From NCBI RefSeq assembly GCF_029589495.1, contig NZ_JAAIVF010000003.1:62001-126000 (forward strand): a stretch of 64,000 nucleotides of DNA. The letters run 5' to 3'. This document shows positions 7,150-34,022 of this stretch, in pieces. The first letter of the stretch is position 1, and each line of letters starts with the position of its first letter. A model generated the notes under the pieces. That model did no database searches. It was not told where the DNA came from and saw only the letters and a program-made list of their open reading frames with translations. A program made the translations under genes and the position numbers. The DNA comes from Speluncibacter jeojiensis. Lineage in GTDB: Bacteria; Actinomycetota; Actinomycetes; Mycobacteriales; Mycobacteriaceae.

Positions 7150-7245
7150 CGCGCGCGCCTGCACTCGGGAATTTCTGTCACCGGATACGGGATTGACCGC
7201 GGCGTAAACTGAATCCCACAAGTGCCTGAGCGCGGGGGGTGCGCC

Positions 7246-8736
7246 ATGCCGGGGTTTTACCCTATGTGGGTCGTGGTGACCCATTGGTTGAACGTGCTGT
7301 TCATGATCATGATGGCCCGTAGCGGCATCGAGATCCTGTCGGCGTTTCCGAAGTTCTATTGGCGTGACGACTGTCCGCCGGGACGCGAATGGCTTCGCCT
7401 GTCCAAGAAGGTGTTCTCCTCCGAACCGCGCAGACCCTGGTCCTCGCTCGACGAGGAGGAGTCGTGGAATCCGGTGATCGCGCTCCCGGGCCGTAAGAAC
7501 CTGGGCCTGGGCCGGCACTGGCACTTCATGACGCTGCAGTTCTGGATCGCCACCGGCGCCGTGTACGTCGCCATGGTGTTCGCGACCGGGTACTGGCACT
7601 ACCTGATCCCGGACCACTGGTCGATCATTCCCGACGCGATCCGCCAGATCGGCACGTATCTGCACTTCGAGTTGGGCCAGCCGATCGCCGGTCAGCCGTT
7701 CAATCCGGCGCAGAAGCTCATGTACTTCACCGTGATCTTCGTGGTGTCGCCGCTGATGATCCTCGCCGGGGCAGCCATGTCGCCGGCCGTGATCGGTCGG
7801 TTCCCCTGGTACGGAAAGCTTTTCGGCGGCAAGCAGGGCGCGCGCAGCGTGCACTTCCTCGGCATGTGCTTCTTCGGCATGTTCGTCGTCGTGCACGTGC
7901 TGATGGTCATCCTGCACGGGCTGCCCAGCCAACTCACCAGGATCGTCCTCGGCAGCGGCCAGAAGGACACCACCTTGGGCCTCGCCCTCGGGTTGACGAT
8001 CCTGTTCGTCATCTTCGCCATCCAGGTGCCGCTGTCCATCGTGTCGCTGCGCCGACGCCGGCTGGTGCAACACCTGACCGGGCTGATGGTCGATCCGCCG
8101 CAGCGTGTGCTGAGCCGGTCGTTCAGTTCGCGCCAGCAGTACACCGACGCCGACATCTCCCCGTACCACCGCGTCAACGGCTATCCGCCCACGGATCCCG
8201 CGTACGAGGAGATGGCGCGCCACGAGTTCCGTGACTACCGGCTCGACGTGGGCGGCCTGGTCAAGCACCCGGTGTCGCTGTCGGTGGCCGATCTGCGCGC
8301 GCTGGGCACGGTCGCCTACATCGCCAAACACAACTGCATCCAGGGCTGGACGTCCATCGGCAAGTGGGGTGGCATCCCCGTGAGCACGATCATCGACCTG
8401 GTCGAGCCCGAGGACGAGGCGAAGGTCGCCGTCTTCTATGCCTTCGACGACAAGGGGCTGACCGAGGCCGAGGGACGCTACGGCCACTTCTACGGCAGCA
8501 TCCCGCTGTGGTTGGCGAGCAAACCGCAGACGATCCTGGCCGTCGACATGAACGGGGGACCGCTGCCGATCGAGCACGGGGCGCCGGTGCGGCTGCGGTG
8601 CGAGTCTCAGCTCGGCTTCAAGATGGTCAAGTGGGTGCGGGGGATCGAGTTCGTCGCCGACTACAGCCACGTCGGGATGGGGCAGGGCGGCTGGCGCGAG
8701 GACCAGCAGTTCTACTCGAACTCGGCCGGCATCTGA
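7246..8736 (+). CDS. Membrane cytochrome b561-type domain fused to sulfite-oxidase-like molybdopterin oxidoreductase
   Basis: The protein has 496 residues. Residues 1-275 form a multi-pass b-type cytochrome with candidate heme His residues in VTHWLN (near residue 13), GRHWHFM, RSVHFLGM and VVVHVLMVILHG. The C-terminal half (from about residue 310) is an oxidoreductase molybdopterin-binding domain: EFRDYRLDVGGLVKHP opens it, and the Mo-ligand Cys lies in AKHNCIQGWTSIGKWGG. The design suggests electron transfer between a cofactor site and the quinone pool within one chain. ATG 7246 follows a G-rich ribosome-binding site; a GTG at 7222 would add eight residues. A TAAACT -10-like hexamer lies at 7205-7210. 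The substrate cannot be inferred; sulfite, sulfoxide or another oxo-substrate are all possible. Confidence 0.85.
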   Translation: MPGFYPMWVVVTHWLNVLFMIMMARSGIEILSAFPKFYWRDDCPPGREWLRLSKKVFSSEPRRPWSSLDEEESWNPVIALPGRKNLGLGRHWHFMTLQFWIATGAVYVAMVFATGYWHYLIPDHWSIIPDAIRQIGTYLHFELGQPIAGQPFNPAQKLMYFTVIFVVSPLMILAGAAMSPAVIGRFPWYGKLFGGKQGARSVHFLGMCFFGMFVVVHVLMVILHGLPSQLTRIVLGSGQKDTTLGLALGLTILFVIFAIQVPLSIVSLRRRRLVQHLTGLMVDPPQRVLSRSFSSRQQYTDADISPYHRVNGYPPTDPAYEEMARHEFRDYRLDVGGLVKHPVSLSVADLRALGTVAYIAKHNCIQGWTSIGKWGGIPVSTIIDLVEPEDEAKVAVFYAFDDKGLTEAEGRYGHFYGSIPLWLASKPQTILAVDMNGGPLPIEHGAPVRLRCESQLGFKMVKWVRGIEFVADYSHVGMGQGGWREDQQFYSNSAGI

Positions 8737-8867
8737 CCGTGCAGGGAACCGGGGCGACGCTGGTGCCGTCACTGGTTCGGACGCCCGGTTCGACCGATTG
8801 GACGCGCTGGGCCTGCAACCCGAGGGCGAACTGCCCGTCGGGTTGCGCTCGGGCGCACGGTGGCGCG

Positions 8868-9128
8868 TCAGGTACGCGATCTGACGCTGTCGCGTGCCGC
8901 GGCCGCATCCTCGGCGACCGCGGGCGTGCCGCCCGCCTTCTCCGCGGCAGTGCGCCGGGCGAACTCGCTGAGCCGCTCGACGACCGGTTGCCCGGCGAAC
9001 ACCGATCGGTCCCGGGTCCACCTGTCGAAGGTGGCCTCGTCCGCACCGGGTCCGTACCCGCCGTAGATCCGGGCCCTGCACAGGGCCACTCGTTGCTGGA
9101 TTGCGCGCACGTCATCTGCCGTGGTCAT
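8868..9128 (-). CDS. Small uncharacterised protein
   Basis: The protein has 86 residues and no recognised family. The ATG at 9128 is well supported by GGGAGG seven bases upstream on the minus strand, which is why the longer in-frame extension to 9209 is not used. The protein is soluble and mostly helical in character, with charged segments (AIQQRVALCRARIY, TFDRWTRDRSVF, ERLSEFARRTAAEK) and an Ala-rich acidic end. It lies alone between the plus-strand molybdopterin enzyme and the minus-strand protease. Function unknown; it could be an orphan regulatory or stress protein. Confidence 0.6.
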   Translation of the reverse strand: MTTADDVRAIQQRVALCRARIYGGYGPGADEATFDRWTRDRSVFAGQPVVERLSEFARRTAAEKAGGTPAVAEDAAAARDSVRSRT

Positions 9129-9259
9129 CTCAGTGCCTCCCGTCACGCCCTGAAAAGACATGGTCGCCGAGAATTCCGTTCCCCGGCGTTCACTGCCCCC
9201 ACAGTCCACGGTTCCAGTCTAGTACCGCTGGACCGGTCGCGACCAGGGTCGACGACCGC

Positions 9260-10000
9260 TCACCCGACCGGCTGCGCCGCCGCGCTGCCTATCTGGTCGA
9301 CCGTCTGCAGCGCGCTGGTGATCGGGATCGCGTAGCCCTGCACGCCGGCCGGGTCGGGCATCGCTGCGGTGTCCATGCCGACGATCCTGCCGTCCGCGTC
9401 GACCAGCGGCCCACCGGAGTCACCGGCCTGGATGTCGGCGCTGACCTGGATCAGCCCGTGCAGGTACTCGAATCCGCCGCTGGTCGTGTCCATGATCGGC
9501 AGCGACTGGTCGAGTGCGGCGACCACGCCCGGCGCCGGTCGCGGTGGACCACCGCGACCACCGGCATTTCCCAGGCCGACGACGTGATCGCCCACGCGGA
9601 CGGACGTCGAATCGCCGAACGGCGGCGTCGGCAGCCCCGAGGCGCCGACCAACTGCACCACCGCGATGTCGCGTTTGCGGTCGACGCCCACCACCCGCGC
9701 CGGATAGGTCGCACCGTTGCCGAGGTCGGTGGCCGTCATGCTGACCGAGTCCTCGACGACGTGATAGTTCGTCAGCACCTCGCCACCCGAGCTGAGCACG
9801 ATGCCGGTGCCCGCCAGTTTCCCGAACTGGCTACCGCCCAGCACCGAGTTGATGTCGACCATGCCGGCGGTCACCGCCTGCAGATCCGGTGGGGCGGCCC
9901 CGGCCGGTGCGGCACCCACCGCCGTGCACAGCGCCGAGATCAGTGCTACGAACAACGTCCCACTCGCCAACGACCGCCCCGCAGCCCGACAAACCGGCAT
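9260..10000 (-). CDS. Exported trypsin-like serine protease (PepA-like)
   Basis: The protein has 246 residues. A signal peptide (hydrophobic core about residues 11-30, cleavage near AGAAP) precedes a chymotrypsin-fold protease. The catalytic triad is visible: His80 in TNYHVV, Asp111 in RKRDIAVVQL and Ser195 in QAGDSGGPL. The sequence around it (AGTGIVLSSGGEVLTN, GLGNAGG, PGVVAALDQS, GLIQVSADIQ) closely resembles mycobacterial PepA (Mtb32A), but the chain stops soon after the protease core, so the C-terminal PDZ domain is missing. The start at ATG 10000 follows a purine-rich stretch; upstream in-frame codons lack a plausible signal-peptide layout. The upstream region, facing the small peptide gene, contains three direct repeats. 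Confidence 0.9.
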   Translation of the reverse strand: MPVCRAAGRSLASGTLFVALISALCTAVGAAPAGAAPPDLQAVTAGMVDINSVLGGSQFGKLAGTGIVLSSGGEVLTNYHVVEDSVSMTATDLGNGATYPARVVGVDRKRDIAVVQLVGASGLPTPPFGDSTSVRVGDHVVGLGNAGGRGGPPRPAPGVVAALDQSLPIMDTTSGGFEYLHGLIQVSADIQAGDSGGPLVDADGRIVGMDTAAMPDPAGVQGYAIPITSALQTVDQIGSAAAQPVG

Positions 10001-10118
10001 GAGCACCCACCAGCTCTCCTCGACGCGAGCTTTCGTGGCGATCGCCGCGAAAGCGGCCCGAAACGACGGTAGCACCGGCTGACCTGCGCAGATGGCGATC
10101 CACACGGATCACGCCACG

Positions 10119-10159
10119 TCAAGAAGGAGTCGTACGGCATCAAGAAGGCATCAAGAAGG
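10119..10159 (+). repeat. Three direct TCAAGAAGG repeats in a divergent promoter region
   Basis: The 9-mer TCAAGAAGG occurs at 10119-10127, 10140-10148 and 10151-10159, with start-to-start distances of 21 and 11 bp, close to two and one helical turns. It sits between the divergent starts of the PepA-like protease (10000) and the 39-codon peptide gene (10303). Same-face direct repeats are typical of response-regulator or activator sites. That role is inference; the repeats themselves are exact. The remaining intergenic sequence from 10001 to 10302 shows no other clear feature. Confidence 0.6.
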
Positions 10160-10302
10160 CGGCGCCGGCCGCCGCCGCGTCCCTACCTTCGTGGTGTCCG
10201 GGGTTGCCCAGGTTTCGCCGGACGGCCGATCGAACCGGCACCCGGGACAGGACCCCGGCCGGCCGCGGCAAGCTTCCCGACCCGACGACACGAGGGCTTT
10301 CC

Positions 10303-10422
10303 ATGTCATCCACCGAATTCACAAGCCTGCTGACCGCCTTCACGACCATCCTGCAGTTCGCCAGTGGCTCAGCTTCCGGCTCCTCGGGAACCTCGCCCAC
10401 CGCAACCTCTCCGGCCGCATAG
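10303..10422 (+). CDS. 39-residue Ser/Thr-rich peptide
   Basis: The short ORF starts at an ATG five bases after GAGGG and ends 23 nt before a strong hairpin terminator, so it has the surroundings of a genuine small gene. The peptide has a helical amphipathic first half (FTSLLTAFTTILQFA) and a low-complexity Ser/Gly/Thr/Pro/Ala second half. It has no classical signal peptide. Tiny amphipathic proteins of similar size act as porins or envelope peptides in corynebacteria, but there is no sequence match to those that I can recognise. The position across from an exported protease and next to repeated upstream elements suggests a regulated, possibly secreted or membrane-active product. Function unknown. 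Confidence 0.5.
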   Translation: MSSTEFTSLLTAFTTILQFASGSASGSSGTSPTATSPAA

Positions 10423-10444
10423 CCGAACGCGACGCGACAACCGC

Positions 10445-10482
10445 CACTTCCTGCGGCCGCCCTCAGGTGGCCGCAGGAAGTG
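10445..10482. terminator. Bidirectional hairpin terminator
   Basis: A perfect 14-bp stem (CACTTCCTGCGGCC at 10445-10458 pairing with 10469-10482) encloses a 10-nt loop. It lies between the convergent ends of the 39-codon peptide (10422) and the PEBP gene (10486). A short CTTTC follows on the plus strand. It can serve both genes. Confidence 0.8.
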
Positions 10483-10485
10483 CTT

Positions 10486-11058
10486 TCAGCGCGTGTAGAA
10501 GCCGTCGAGCCGGCCGCGGCCCAGCACCGGACCGCGGACACCGGCCAGCACGGTCTTGGCGCGGGCGCTCTCGAGGTCCACACCGCCGTCGGCAGCCCGC
10601 AGTGGCTCGGCCAGCGCGAAGATCTGAAAGACGTAGCGGTGGGGGCCGTGCCCCCTGATCGGCATGGGACCCACATACCCGCGTCCCATGCCCGAACGCA
10701 GCACCCGCACACCGGCCGGGGCGGTGTCCGCACCCAGGGCGCCGCGCGCCAGCTGGACACGGTCGGCGTCGAGCAGGGCGACGCAGTGCACGAAGGGCAG
10801 CCGCGTGGGGGAGTCGACGTCCTGGATCACCAACAGCCACTGGGCTGTCCGACCCGGGGCCGCGGTCCACGACAGAGCGGGTGACAGGTTCTCGCCGCCC
10901 GCGCGACGACCCGCGTGCGCCCGGGAGAGGACGCCCTCGAGCTCGAAGTCGCTGCTGCGCAACCTCACCGAATCCGGGCCGGCGAACCCCGGCAGATTCC
11001 ACGCCAACCGGCCCTCGCCGGCGCGCCGATTGCGCAGCATTTGCCCGAGTATCGCCAT
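10486..11058 (-). CDS. YbhB/YbcL family (PEBP, Raf-kinase-inhibitor-like) protein
   Basis: The protein has 190 residues. Two family signatures are present: ENLSPALSWTAAPGRTAQWLLVIQDVDSPT with its ligand-binding Asp/Ser/Pro triad, and GYVGPMPIRGHGPHRYVFQIFAL, the conserved C-terminal block of bacterial PEBP proteins. No signal peptide or membrane segment is seen, so it is likely cytoplasmic. These proteins bind phosphate- or phosphoethanolamine-like anions; the bacterial role is mostly unknown. The frame ends directly before the shared terminator. It is about 30 residues longer at the N-terminus than the minimal family, a stretch with no recognised motif. Confidence 0.87.
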   Translation of the reverse strand: MAILGQMLRNRRAGEGRLAWNLPGFAGPDSVRLRSSDFELEGVLSRAHAGRRAGGENLSPALSWTAAPGRTAQWLLVIQDVDSPTRLPFVHCVALLDADRVQLARGALGADTAPAGVRVLRSGMGRGYVGPMPIRGHGPHRYVFQIFALAEPLRAADGGVDLESARAKTVLAGVRGPVLGRGRLDGFYTR

Positions 11059-11181
11059 GGCCCAGTACCTCGTTCGGCGGTCGGTGATGATGCGTCCCGA
11101 CGCCGCATTTTACGGTGTCGGCTTGGCGTCCAAGCGAGTTCGGCACCCGCTGTTTCCTGCGCGGTGATCGACTTCATCGCT

Positions 11182-11187
11182 TATAGT
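11182..11187 (+). promoter_or_regulatory. TATAGT -10 element upstream of GH25 lysozyme
   Basis: TATAGT is an excellent -10 hexamer and lies 6 nt before an in-frame ATG at 11194. No convincing -35 is seen. Transcription starting near 11194 would give either a leaderless mRNA or a leader of about 138 nt to the ATG at 11332. Confidence 0.5.
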
Positions 11188-11331
11188 CCCTGAATGATCA
11201 TGATCCGGTCGTTGATCGTCAAGCAATCGGGGATGCTGATGCGCAGCGGATATGGAAGACACGACTCCGGTCGGCAGCGTTTCGGGGTGCCGTATGCCGG
11301 ACGGCACCGGGTCGCGGCACCGCGGCCGAGA

Positions 11332-12264
11332 ATGCGGCGCCGCAGCACGGTCCTGGCCGCGCTGGCCGCCGCCGTCGTGCTCACCGGTGCCGGCGCCACC
11401 CACGCGGCCGCGGTCACCGGTCCCGACGTTTCTTCCTGGCAGCACCCCGGCGGGTCACTCATCAACTGGGGCGCCGTCAAGGCGGCCGGGCAGAGCTTCG
11501 CCATGGTCAAGGCCACCGAGGGCCTCGACTACGTCAACCCGTTCTTCGTCCCGGACGTGCTCGCCATGCGCGCGTCGGGCGTGGCCACCGGCACCTATCA
11601 CTACGCCGACGTCACGCTTCCGGCCGCACCGCAGGCGGCGTTCTTCTCGGCGATGACCTTCGGCCAGCACGGGCCGATGGACCTGCCGCCGGTGATCGAT
11701 TTCGAGGACGCCAAGGGCCAGTCGCCGGCGCAGTTGAAATCGTGGCTGCACCAGTACCTGGACGCGGTCCAGTCGCTGACCGGTAAGACGCCGATCATCT
11801 ACACCTATCAGAGCTTCTGGCGCAATCAGATGGCCAATACCACCGACTTCGCCAACTATCCGCTGTGGATCGCCGACTACAACGGCCAGAACCAACCGGG
11901 CGCGCTGCCCGGCGGCTGGAAGAACTGGACGTTCTGGCAGTACACCGACTCCGGGCACCTGCCGGGCGTGCAGGGCAACGTCGACCTGAACAAGTACAAC
12001 ACCTCGCTCGGGTCGTTCGCCGACTACATCAACTCGCCGGGGGTGACCAGCCCGCAGTCCGACGCCACCACGACGACGACCTCGCCGGACCAGAGCACCC
12101 CCGACCAGAACGCTGCACCGCAGCCCCAGGCCGCACCCGCCGAGCAGCAGGCCCCCAGCCAGGGGCAGGACGACGACGGCCAGTCGACGCTGACGCCCGA
12201 GGACATCGCGAAGATCGAGTCCCTGGCGACCACGCTGCTCAACACGCTGTCCAACTACTCGTAA
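11332..12264 (+). CDS. Secreted GH25 lysozyme-like hydrolase
   Basis: The protein has 310 residues from this start. A signal peptide (MRRRSTVLAALAAAVVLTGAG) is followed by a GH25 domain: GPDVSSWQHP opens the barrel, VIDFEDAKG carries the catalytic acids, and PLWIADYN, WTFWQYTDSG and NVDLNKYN close it. A Thr/Ser/Gln/Pro-rich linker of about 60 residues and a short helix (TPEDIAKIESLATTLLNTLSNYS) follow. Such enzymes cleave the MurNAc-GlcNAc bond in peptidoglycan. The frame extends to ATG 11194 just after a TATAGT hexamer, but that extra 46-codon stretch has clearly less GC-biased third positions, so the start remains uncertain. No strong ribosome-binding site precedes either ATG. Confidence 0.85.
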   Translation: MRRRSTVLAALAAAVVLTGAGATHAAAVTGPDVSSWQHPGGSLINWGAVKAAGQSFAMVKATEGLDYVNPFFVPDVLAMRASGVATGTYHYADVTLPAAPQAAFFSAMTFGQHGPMDLPPVIDFEDAKGQSPAQLKSWLHQYLDAVQSLTGKTPIIYTYQSFWRNQMANTTDFANYPLWIADYNGQNQPGALPGGWKNWTFWQYTDSGHLPGVQGNVDLNKYNTSLGSFADYINSPGVTSPQSDATTTTTSPDQSTPDQNAAPQPQAAPAEQQAPSQGQDDDGQSTLTPEDIAKIESLATTLLNTLSNYS

Positions 12265-12306
12265 ACGGGGTTTCGACGTAACCTCCGAGGGGCGGGGAGG
12301 TGAGCT

Positions 12307-13488
12307 GTGGTTCGCGGCCGTGCGGGATTGGTGGTCGCCGGCGCGGGTGCGCGCGGCGCCTATGAGGCTGGGGCACTGTCGGTGCTGTTGCCGTGGATGA
12401 GCCGCACCGGGCCCGCCCCTACCGTGCTCGTCGGCACCAGTGCGGGCGCCCTGAACGTGGTCGGGCTCGGCGGCATGGCGCACCTGCCGCCGTTCCAGGC
12501 TGCCGAACAACTCGTCGAAACCTGGTCGGCGGTGCAACTGCGGGACGTGTTCGGGTTGGCCAGCGGCCTCGAGACCGGACTGGGCTACCTGGGCCAGCTG
12601 GCGGGGCTTCCGGTGCGGTTGCCGAGCCTGCTCGACACCGAGCGGCTGCGGTCCCGGTTGACCGAGTGGCTGCCGCTGGAGTCGTTGCACGAGAACATCG
12701 ACGCCGGCCGGGTCGACGCGGTCGCGGTGGCCACCACCTCGACGGTCACCGGCGGCACGGTCGTATTCGTGGAGAAGAACGATGCGGTCGCTCTGCCGCC
12801 CAATGACGTCGGCCGCAACATCACCTACGTCGAGACCCGGCTGACCGTCGAACACGTGATGGCCTCCGCGGCGGTGCCACTGCTGTTCCGGCCCGTGCGG
12901 GTCACCGAACCGGCGCGCTGGGCCGGCTGGTACGTCGACGGCGGACTGCGGCTGAACACCCCGCTCAAACCCGCGCTCTCACTCGGCTGCACCCGGCTCG
13001 GTGTGGTCGCGACCCAGCCGATGACCTCCACGACGTCCCCGCCGCCGCGTGCGCACCGCCGCACCCGGGGCGAGCCGCCCGGCGACGCGATCGAACCCGA
13101 TGTGTATGCGGTGGCGGCGCTCTCGCTGCGGGTGCTGATGGCCGACCGCATGATCGAGGACCTGCACCGACTCGAGGAGTGGAATGCGGGGCTCGAACCG
13201 GGAGCAGCCTCCCGCGCCGTCGAGGTGATCTTCGCCGGGCCGGCCGCCGGGGAACGCGGCGACATCTCCGCGCTCGCCGACGCCGAGTTCCATCGGCGGT
13301 ACGGCGGGCTCGGCGGGCTGCGCAGCCCGTCGATGTGGATCCTCGAACGTCTCATCGGCGGCGACCCCGACGACCACGGGAACCTGCTCAGCTACCTGTT
13401 CTTCGACTCGGGATTCACCGACGCCGTCGCGAAACTCGGAGGCCGGCACGCCCGCGAGCGGCTGGGCGAGGGTGACCGCGACGGGTGA
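12307..13488 (+). CDS. Patatin-like phospholipase family protein
   Basis: The protein has 393 residues. The Gly-rich oxyanion-hole motif GAGARGAYEAG (residues 12-22), the nucleophile motif VGTSAG with Ser45, and the catalytic Asp211 in YVDGGLR form the Ser-Asp dyad of patatin-type acyl hydrolases. No signal peptide is visible, so it is probably cytosolic or membrane-associated. Likely activity is on phospholipid or acylglycerol esters. GTG 12307 is preceded by GGGGAGGTGAGCT, a good ribosome-binding site. A Pro/Arg-rich insert around residues 240-260 (SPPPRAHRRTRGE) interrupts the C-terminal half. It converges with the MocR gene. Confidence 0.87.
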   Translation: MVRGRAGLVVAGAGARGAYEAGALSVLLPWMSRTGPAPTVLVGTSAGALNVVGLGGMAHLPPFQAAEQLVETWSAVQLRDVFGLASGLETGLGYLGQLAGLPVRLPSLLDTERLRSRLTEWLPLESLHENIDAGRVDAVAVATTSTVTGGTVVFVEKNDAVALPPNDVGRNITYVETRLTVEHVMASAAVPLLFRPVRVTEPARWAGWYVDGGLRLNTPLKPALSLGCTRLGVVATQPMTSTTSPPPRAHRRTRGEPPGDAIEPDVYAVAALSLRVLMADRMIEDLHRLEEWNAGLEPGAASRAVEVIFAGPAAGERGDISALADAEFHRRYGGLGGLRSPSMWILERLIGGDPDDHGNLLSYLFFDSGFTDAVAKLGGRHARERLGEGDRDG

Positions 13489-33983: not shown

Positions 33984-34022
33984 GTTCCGGGTGGGCACGC
34001 CGCGAGTGTGCCCACCCGGAAC
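33984..34022 (+). terminator. Strong hairpin terminator after the monooxygenase gene
   Basis: A perfect 15-bp stem (GTTCCGGGTGGGCAC at 33984-33998 with 34008-34022) has a 9-nt loop and begins 23 nt after the monooxygenase stop codon. It has no U-tract, but its length and GC content make it a convincing terminator. Confidence 0.8.

Follow-up and report, generated by a model that had tools for sequence, protein, structure and literature searches.

Three described operators of the OmpR/PhoB response-regulator class come close to the locus reported here, and all are cited from excerpts of the source papers. The PhoP sites of Mycobacterium tuberculosis consist of a 7-bp motif with a 4-bp spacer, and arrays of three and four motifs were bound better than two (excerpt of PMC4832192). 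The motif TKTTAAGAAM was published for MprA of C. glutamicum, which binds the htrA promoter (excerpt of PMC12113857), while CiaR uses the direct repeat TTTAAG-N5-TTTAAG, has htrA among its most strongly regulated genes and drives csRNAs as well (excerpt of PMC3091779). For small envelope proteins, the closest systems are PorA, PorH and ProtX of Corynebacterium, which are small, helical and devoid of an identifiable signal sequence (excerpt of PMC12632848), and O-mycoloylation was located mostly on Ser in flexible Ser/Gly/Ala stretches (excerpt of PMC11066868).

The DNA analysed here is a stretch of 64,000 nucleotides (the window) on contig 13 of the 4.87-Mb genome of Speluncibacter jeojiensis, and its G+C content is 69.6%. 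The host, a relative of the mycobacteria, presumably produces mycolic acids, an assumption based on its relatives and on Mce-like neighbours recognised by eye. A gene for a cytochrome b561/molybdopterin oxidoreductase fusion (7222-8736, plus) is followed by an ORF of 113 aa that matched no family (8868-9209, minus) and by the gene of a serine protease of 246 aa (9260-10000, minus, ATG at 10000). A gap of 302 bp separates the protease gene from the 39-codon ORF MSSTEFTSLLTAFTTILQFASGSASGSSGTSPTATSPAA on the plus strand (10303-10422 with the stop; its 39 codons are as first annotated). Behind it come a hairpin (10445-10482), a convergent gene for a YbhB/YbcL-like PEBP protein of 190 aa (10486-11058, minus; PF01161, 1e-18) and a GH25 lysozyme gene (11194-12264, plus).

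The divergent gene had been called an exported serine protease of PepA type, and this call held: the product matched Trypsin_2 at 1.1e-27, with an exported-looking N-terminus judged by eye. Its catalytic domain is trypsin-like (PF13365, 98 bits against a cut-off of 27.6), its best PDB match was the HtrA protease 1l1j, and the NCBIfam Do/HtrA models matched it with scores under their cut-offs. It resembles PepA/HtrA-type exported proteases in the Trypsin_2 domain, in the His, Asp and GDSGGP motifs (by eye) and in the N-terminus, but it is only 246 aa long and matched no PDZ model, whereas a paralog in the same genome (L142) has a PDZ domain. In a sample of 300 other genomes of the family, the match with the highest score was 57% identical and one partial match reached 63% over 172 residues; a contig scan with the protease gave a single distant relative with 33% identity (L032). 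A protease of the same kind is paired with a cytochrome b561/molybdopterin oxidoreductase gene twice in the genome (window 7222-10000 and L098:4204-7033), the two proteases being 51% identical; this pairing may be a sign that protease and redox enzyme are connected.

The three repeats of the gap

The word TCAAGAAGG stands three times on the plus strand of the gap, at 10119-10127, 10140-10148 and 10151-10159, and the exact repeats and their steps of 21 and 11 bp were as the initial annotation had given them. These 3 copies are the only ones in the 64-kb window, where 0.07 were expected, and none of 100 shuffles gave at least three. It is also the sole 9-mer of the window with three copies within 60 bp, while 0 of 60 Markov-1 windows contained any such word. 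The steps place all three boxes on one face of the helix. Tandem direct repeats at a step of about 11 bp, by which OmpR/PhoB operators are recognised, were thus found here (steps 21 and 11), and TCAAGAA-N4-TCAAGAA has the geometry of the M. tuberculosis PhoP sites, a 7-bp motif with a 4-bp spacer (PMC4832192, in excerpt). The locus shares with the PhoP, MprA and CiaR operators the head-to-tail half-sites, the 11-bp step and the location in the intergenic region upstream of an HtrA-type protease gene. It differs from them in the third copy at 21 bp and in the half-site TCAAGAAGG itself, which is distinct from TCACAGC (PhoP), TTTAAG (CiaR) and the MprA-like box of this genome (TCTCAG).

Genome-wide search of the pair with an 11-bp step found this locus alone, even when 3 mismatches were allowed, and no second exact pair was found at any gap from 0 to 26. 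The family sample comprised 301 genomes across 31 genera, in which the genus of the window is represented by this genome alone. In a box search of 351 family genomes, 31 had a match at no more than 2 mismatches; because the reversed-pattern control gave more genomes (about 65, counted by hand), these matches are background, and the box is real here but private. Exact TCAAGAAGG in other loci examined was a single copy in L019 and a single copy in L039, the latter a protease-like match in the same genome, and in none was it tandem. Of the six other protease-like matches, two of which are on contigs 17 and 18, the four on contig 13 (250 kb), contig 14 and contig 1 were scanned and had no exact 9-mer repeats at steps of 10, 11, 21 or 22 bp. 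A narrow literature search did not meet TCAAGAAGG, which carries little weight. A coding remnant was ruled out as the origin of the repeats, since the 11-bp step is not divisible by 3.

On the minus strand, positions 10158-10178 resemble a terminator, a GC-rich hairpin with a T-rich tail that is repeat 3 read backwards. The terminator scan of the 2-kb region gave 2 overlapping matches there against 0.6 expected, and the structure may be due to chance.

As a positive control, we examined a response-regulator/kinase/trypsin-like gene cluster on contig 17, the order of which we take to be mprA-mprB-pepD. Two TCTCAG-N5-TCTCAG boxes, which also have an 11-bp step, are present in it, one immediately ahead of where the first gene probably starts and within that gene's longest ORF, and one ahead of the third gene, within the final codons of the kinase ORF. 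The whole genome has 11 such sites at no more than 1 mismatch, 3 of them exact, and the reversed control gave 0. Six of the 11 adjoin mprA-, pepD-, sigB-, sigE-, PDZ-protease- and MmpL-like genes, and the other five were assessed by ORF listing alone. One of the sigma factors has regions 1.2-4 and one is ECF-like; in the case of the PDZ-bearing trypsin-like protease, the longest ORF extends with its 5' end into the site. These MprA-type box loci (L134-L145) are distributed over contigs 17, 14, 18, 7 and others. Since the TCTCAG box stands by regulator, protease and sigma genes, 11-bp-step direct repeats mark such promoters in this genome, and TCAAGAAGG represents another specificity.

No cognate regulator of TCAAGAAGG was found among 13 Trans_reg_C loci: within about 1.5 kb, they had no TCAAGAAGG-like pair at an 11-bp step when as many as 5 of 18 positions could differ, and five weak pairs with 4-5 mismatches stood at other steps (12 or 21). 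BldC was rejected, its published repeat AATTXXXX(C) being unlike TCAAGAAGG (excerpt of PMC5859096). The motif of C. glutamicum MprA does share T-N-AAGAA with TCAAGAAGG (PMC12113857, in excerpt), and the mprA/pepD-like region of this genome contained no TTAAGAA, with its two TNAAGAA inside called genes. MprA was rejected too: its likely box here is TCTCAG-N5-TCTCAG, of which none is at this locus, and the window has just two 2-mismatch matches (61610 and 61621), which is within chance.

A second target was also considered and dropped. TCACGAA-N4-TCACGAA stands before a gene for a secreted SpoIID-domain protein (L149:1300-1740) among several GTCACA-like words, and a relaxed search returned 4 sites including the present locus, against 3 in the reversed control. 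The GTCACA-like words represent an MtrA-type motif, and the L149 region is possibly an MtrA-type control region.

The rarity of the repeats, their one-turn helical phasing and the 11-bp-step box of the positive control support the earlier suggestion that they are a regulator site. We consider it probable that the three repeats form a direct-repeat operator, and its class would be that of the OmpR/PhoB response regulators, with a private specificity.

Candidate promoters and the genes possibly served by the repeats

The gap has one TANNNT hexamer on each strand, both found by consensus match only: TACCTT (10184-10189, plus), the candidate -10 of the peptide gene, and TACCGT (10066-10071, minus), the candidate -10 of the protease gene. 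The first is 24 bp from repeat 3 and the second 47 bp from repeat 1. Simulated gaps had 0.36 such hexamers on the plus and 0.56 on the minus strand by chance; 29% of them contained one or more on the plus strand and 44% on the minus strand. With a 17-bp spacer from TACCTT, the predicted plus-strand -35 falls at 10161-10166, one base past repeat 3, where an activator of the OmpR/PhoB class could stand. This spacing favours the peptide gene as principal target of the repeats, but only weakly, because TANNNT is common by chance and the gap contained no promoter in a generic sigma-70 scan. The initial annotation had proposed a common regulator of both genes, and control of the protease by the same operator is a tentative reading that we would not bet on.

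Alternatively, the repeats could be an operator of the envelope-stress type for the protease only, as with pepD/htrA, and the 39-codon ORF a chance frame behind the PEBP gene. The binding of C. glutamicum MprA to the htrA promoter (PMC12113857, in excerpt) and the strong control of htrA by CiaR through TTTAAG-N5-TTTAAG (PMC3091779, in excerpt) fit this reading, and so do the pepD-like gene and the PDZ-bearing protease of this genome, which adjoin the TCTCAG box. The hexamer distances go against it, the boxes being closer to the plus-strand TANNNT than to the minus-strand one, though both hexamers may be chance. Taken with the evidence on the ORF and the hairpin given below, we think a protease-only operator unlikely but still worth serious attention.

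The 39-codon ORF and the neighbouring hairpin

No stop interrupts the frame of the ORF over 139 codons, and a different frame of the gap contains a 188-aa ORF, so the length of the 39-codon ORF is worthless as coding evidence in such DNA. The ribosome-binding site, earlier called good, does exist as the Shine-Dalgarno sequence GAGG at 7 nt, but it is moderate. The codon usage was compared with a reference set of 24 ORFs that we chose ourselves. The synonymous codon score was -4.0 against a gene mean of +7.4; 1.5% of 39-codon gene windows were this low, and 12% of wrong frames reached it. For full codons, the ORF scored -7.4 while genes averaged +11.8; 1.0% of gene windows were this low, and 0.8% of wrong frames were this high. 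Under the local base composition, the full-codon score of the ORF was -5.2 and that of one antisense frame of the same stretch +2.8, but the antisense frame had the worse synonymous score (-6.6 against -4.3). Codon usage that is not gene-like, with an antisense frame scoring better, speaks for the chance frame required if the operator serves the protease only. GC3 minus GC2, a measure that was applied to novel M. tuberculosis ORFs, was about +0.03, and the same study found pervasive translation of short ORFs that are unlikely to be functional (PMC9094748, in excerpt). A Ser/Thr-rich protein by itself depresses GC3 minus GC2.

The amino-acid composition points the other way, being very unlikely for a chance frame. 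The peptide has no Lys, Arg or His in 38 residues, and among 20000 open reads from each of three composition models, this was seen at a frequency of 0.00015 (dinucleotides of the ORF itself), 0.00015 (local stretch) and 0.00005 (stretch 10001-10485), for a feature picked after the peptide had been seen. The window contains 1137 ORFs of 25-80 aa that start with ATG or GTG, nested starts included; 8 of them lack these three residues, and 3 of the 8 are nested in the protease frame. When at most 3% Lys/Arg/His, at least 50% Ser/Gly/Thr/Ala and an SD of at least 4 were combined, with thresholds likewise picked after the peptide had been seen, the MSSTEFTSLLTAFTTILQFASGSASGSSGTSPTATSPAA ORF was left alone among the 1137. 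On balance, we lean towards a real, translated peptide.

The hairpin at 10445-10482 has 14 Watson-Crick pairs, then a G-T pair and 2 more, which gives 17-nt arms with a loop of 4 and -35.6 kcal/mol. Among the 15 hairpins of the window with a stem of at least 12 and no more than 1 mismatch, it is the strongest, jointly with one at 33984. The perfect 14-bp stem of the terminator that had been annotated therefore stands, but the terminator assignment is qualified: the hairpin has no T-run, the terminator scan did not list it (the only site listed was 10158-10178 on the minus strand, overlapping repeat 3), and it adjoins the PEBP gene, absent from the initial annotation, as well. Since it lies 3 nt past the PEBP stop and 22 nt past the peptide stop, it is probably a terminator common to the two convergent genes. 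The hairpin is real and could equally belong to the PEBP gene, which alone can explain it, and this again suits a protease-only operator with no peptide gene. The best full-length relative of the PEBP protein (43%, from another family of the order, L102) had no convergent gene of at least 60 aa called behind its gene, and a plasmid DNA search gave one match, in a Streptomyces record, covering 24% of the query and lying inside the PEBP gene. The second 17-bp hairpin of equal strength, at 33984-34022, stands 24 nt after a gene stop and also has no T-run.

The plus-strand transcript might instead be a small regulatory RNA ended by the hairpin, in which the ORF is incidental. CiaR, itself a direct-repeat regulator, drives csRNAs as well as htrA (PMC3091779, in excerpt), the hairpin is strong, the RNA including it folded better than shuffles (z -2.9), and the codon usage of the ORF is poor. 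However, the leader and ORF without the hairpin folded no better than shuffles (z +1.0), as expected of an mRNA; Rfam gave no match up to E 5 in 8000-13000, and the composition of the ORF speaks against an incidental frame. We judge a small RNA improbable.

The putative peptide and the envelope

Single-sequence AlphaFold2, to which we give modest weight, predicted a helix at residues 3-25 (pLDDT about 91 over residues 1-20, mean 76) followed by a flexible tail, which is the Ser/Gly/Thr tail of the peptide. The hydrophobic moment was larger than that of shuffles (p 0.001 to 0.011). The ORF product would most likely be a lineage-specific small protein with a nearly uncharged, predicted amphipathic helix (residues 3-25) and a flexible tail.

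Homologs of the peptide were searched in overlapping sets of genomes. None of the matches at E up to 1 in 61 relatives survived reading, 5 other matches in 401 family genomes (E 0.014-0.041) were judged unrelated frames, and 397 genomes of the order gave none at E up to 0.01; all look-alikes at E 0.014-1 proved to be unrelated frames on reading. Plasmids, Pfam, NCBIfam and PHROGs gave no match either. The conservation of ORF and repeats, which had been proposed as a check, was therefore negative in other genera, which does not decide the matter, since the window's own genus is represented by this genome alone. The best-scoring match of the protease in other genera is itself just 57% identical, so that the absence of the peptide there says little for or against the gene.

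That the peptide serves the protease system as its substrate, its ligand or a membrane-active effector, as first proposed, is very unlikely in our view: adjacency and the predicted amphipathic helix suit it, and a membrane-active peptide as such is compatible with that helix, but no evidence for a substrate or ligand was obtained, the best other match of the peptide in its own genome (E 0.78) lying inside a 415-codon frame, so that no homologous peptide accompanies the six other protease-like matches (a comparison of homologous peptides only, with a gene listing that covers genes of at least 60 aa).

As a lineage-specific small protein, the peptide resembles PorA, PorH and ProtX in its length of tens of residues, its predicted helix, its Ser/Gly-rich flexible stretch, its lack of a signal sequence (read by eye) and its origin in the same order by kinship. 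The prediction is one of a short alpha-helical protein without signal peptide, as in the PorA/PorH type (helix 3-25 as predicted, signal judged by eye). Unlike these proteins, it is an orphan that matches no sequence family, and no partner gene was recognised beside it. No Pfam or NCBIfam match to E 1, in libraries that may lack PorA/PorH models, and no homolog in the 401 family genomes pointed to PorA/PorH homology. The likeness is one of functional analogy, and membership in a sequence family is without support. By this analogy, an envelope location of the peptide is conceivable, but we hold it to be rather unlikely than likely.

The reading that we prefer would run as follows. The gap would be a divergent control region in which the three TCAAGAAGG boxes act as head-to-tail half-sites, two helical turns and one helical turn apart on one DNA face. 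An activated regulator would bind the boxes cooperatively and bring RNA polymerase to a promoter immediately beyond them, with the candidate -35/-10 at 10161-10189. The resulting short mRNA would begin with a leader of some 105 nt and end with the hairpin, the 39-codon ORF lying in between, and its product would be a lineage-specific envelope (mycomembrane) peptide, perhaps acting like PorA/PorH/ProtX. The repeats, their phasing and uniqueness, the composition and the hairpin were computed and the helix was predicted; from these we infer the regulator class, the activation, the promoter, the translation and the location. Taken as a whole, from the direct-repeat operator through the short mRNA to a lineage-specific amphipathic small protein, probably of the envelope, the scheme is a working proposal with somewhat less than even chances. 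Its boldest extension, a possibly mycoloylated mycomembrane peptide, unrelated in sequence to PorA/PorH, that shares a dedicated response-regulator operator with the divergent exported protease so that the surface peptide and the quality-control protease are co-induced, is a long shot.

To our knowledge, few short helical envelope proteins have been described in mycolate bacteria. If the proposal is true, an independently arisen one would be added for these organisms, along with a direct-repeat specificity to which this analysis could assign no regulator. The peptide also suggests that the absence of basic residues together with an amphipathic helix may serve as a cheap hint for separating real tiny genes from noise in GC-rich DNA, where codon bias fails.
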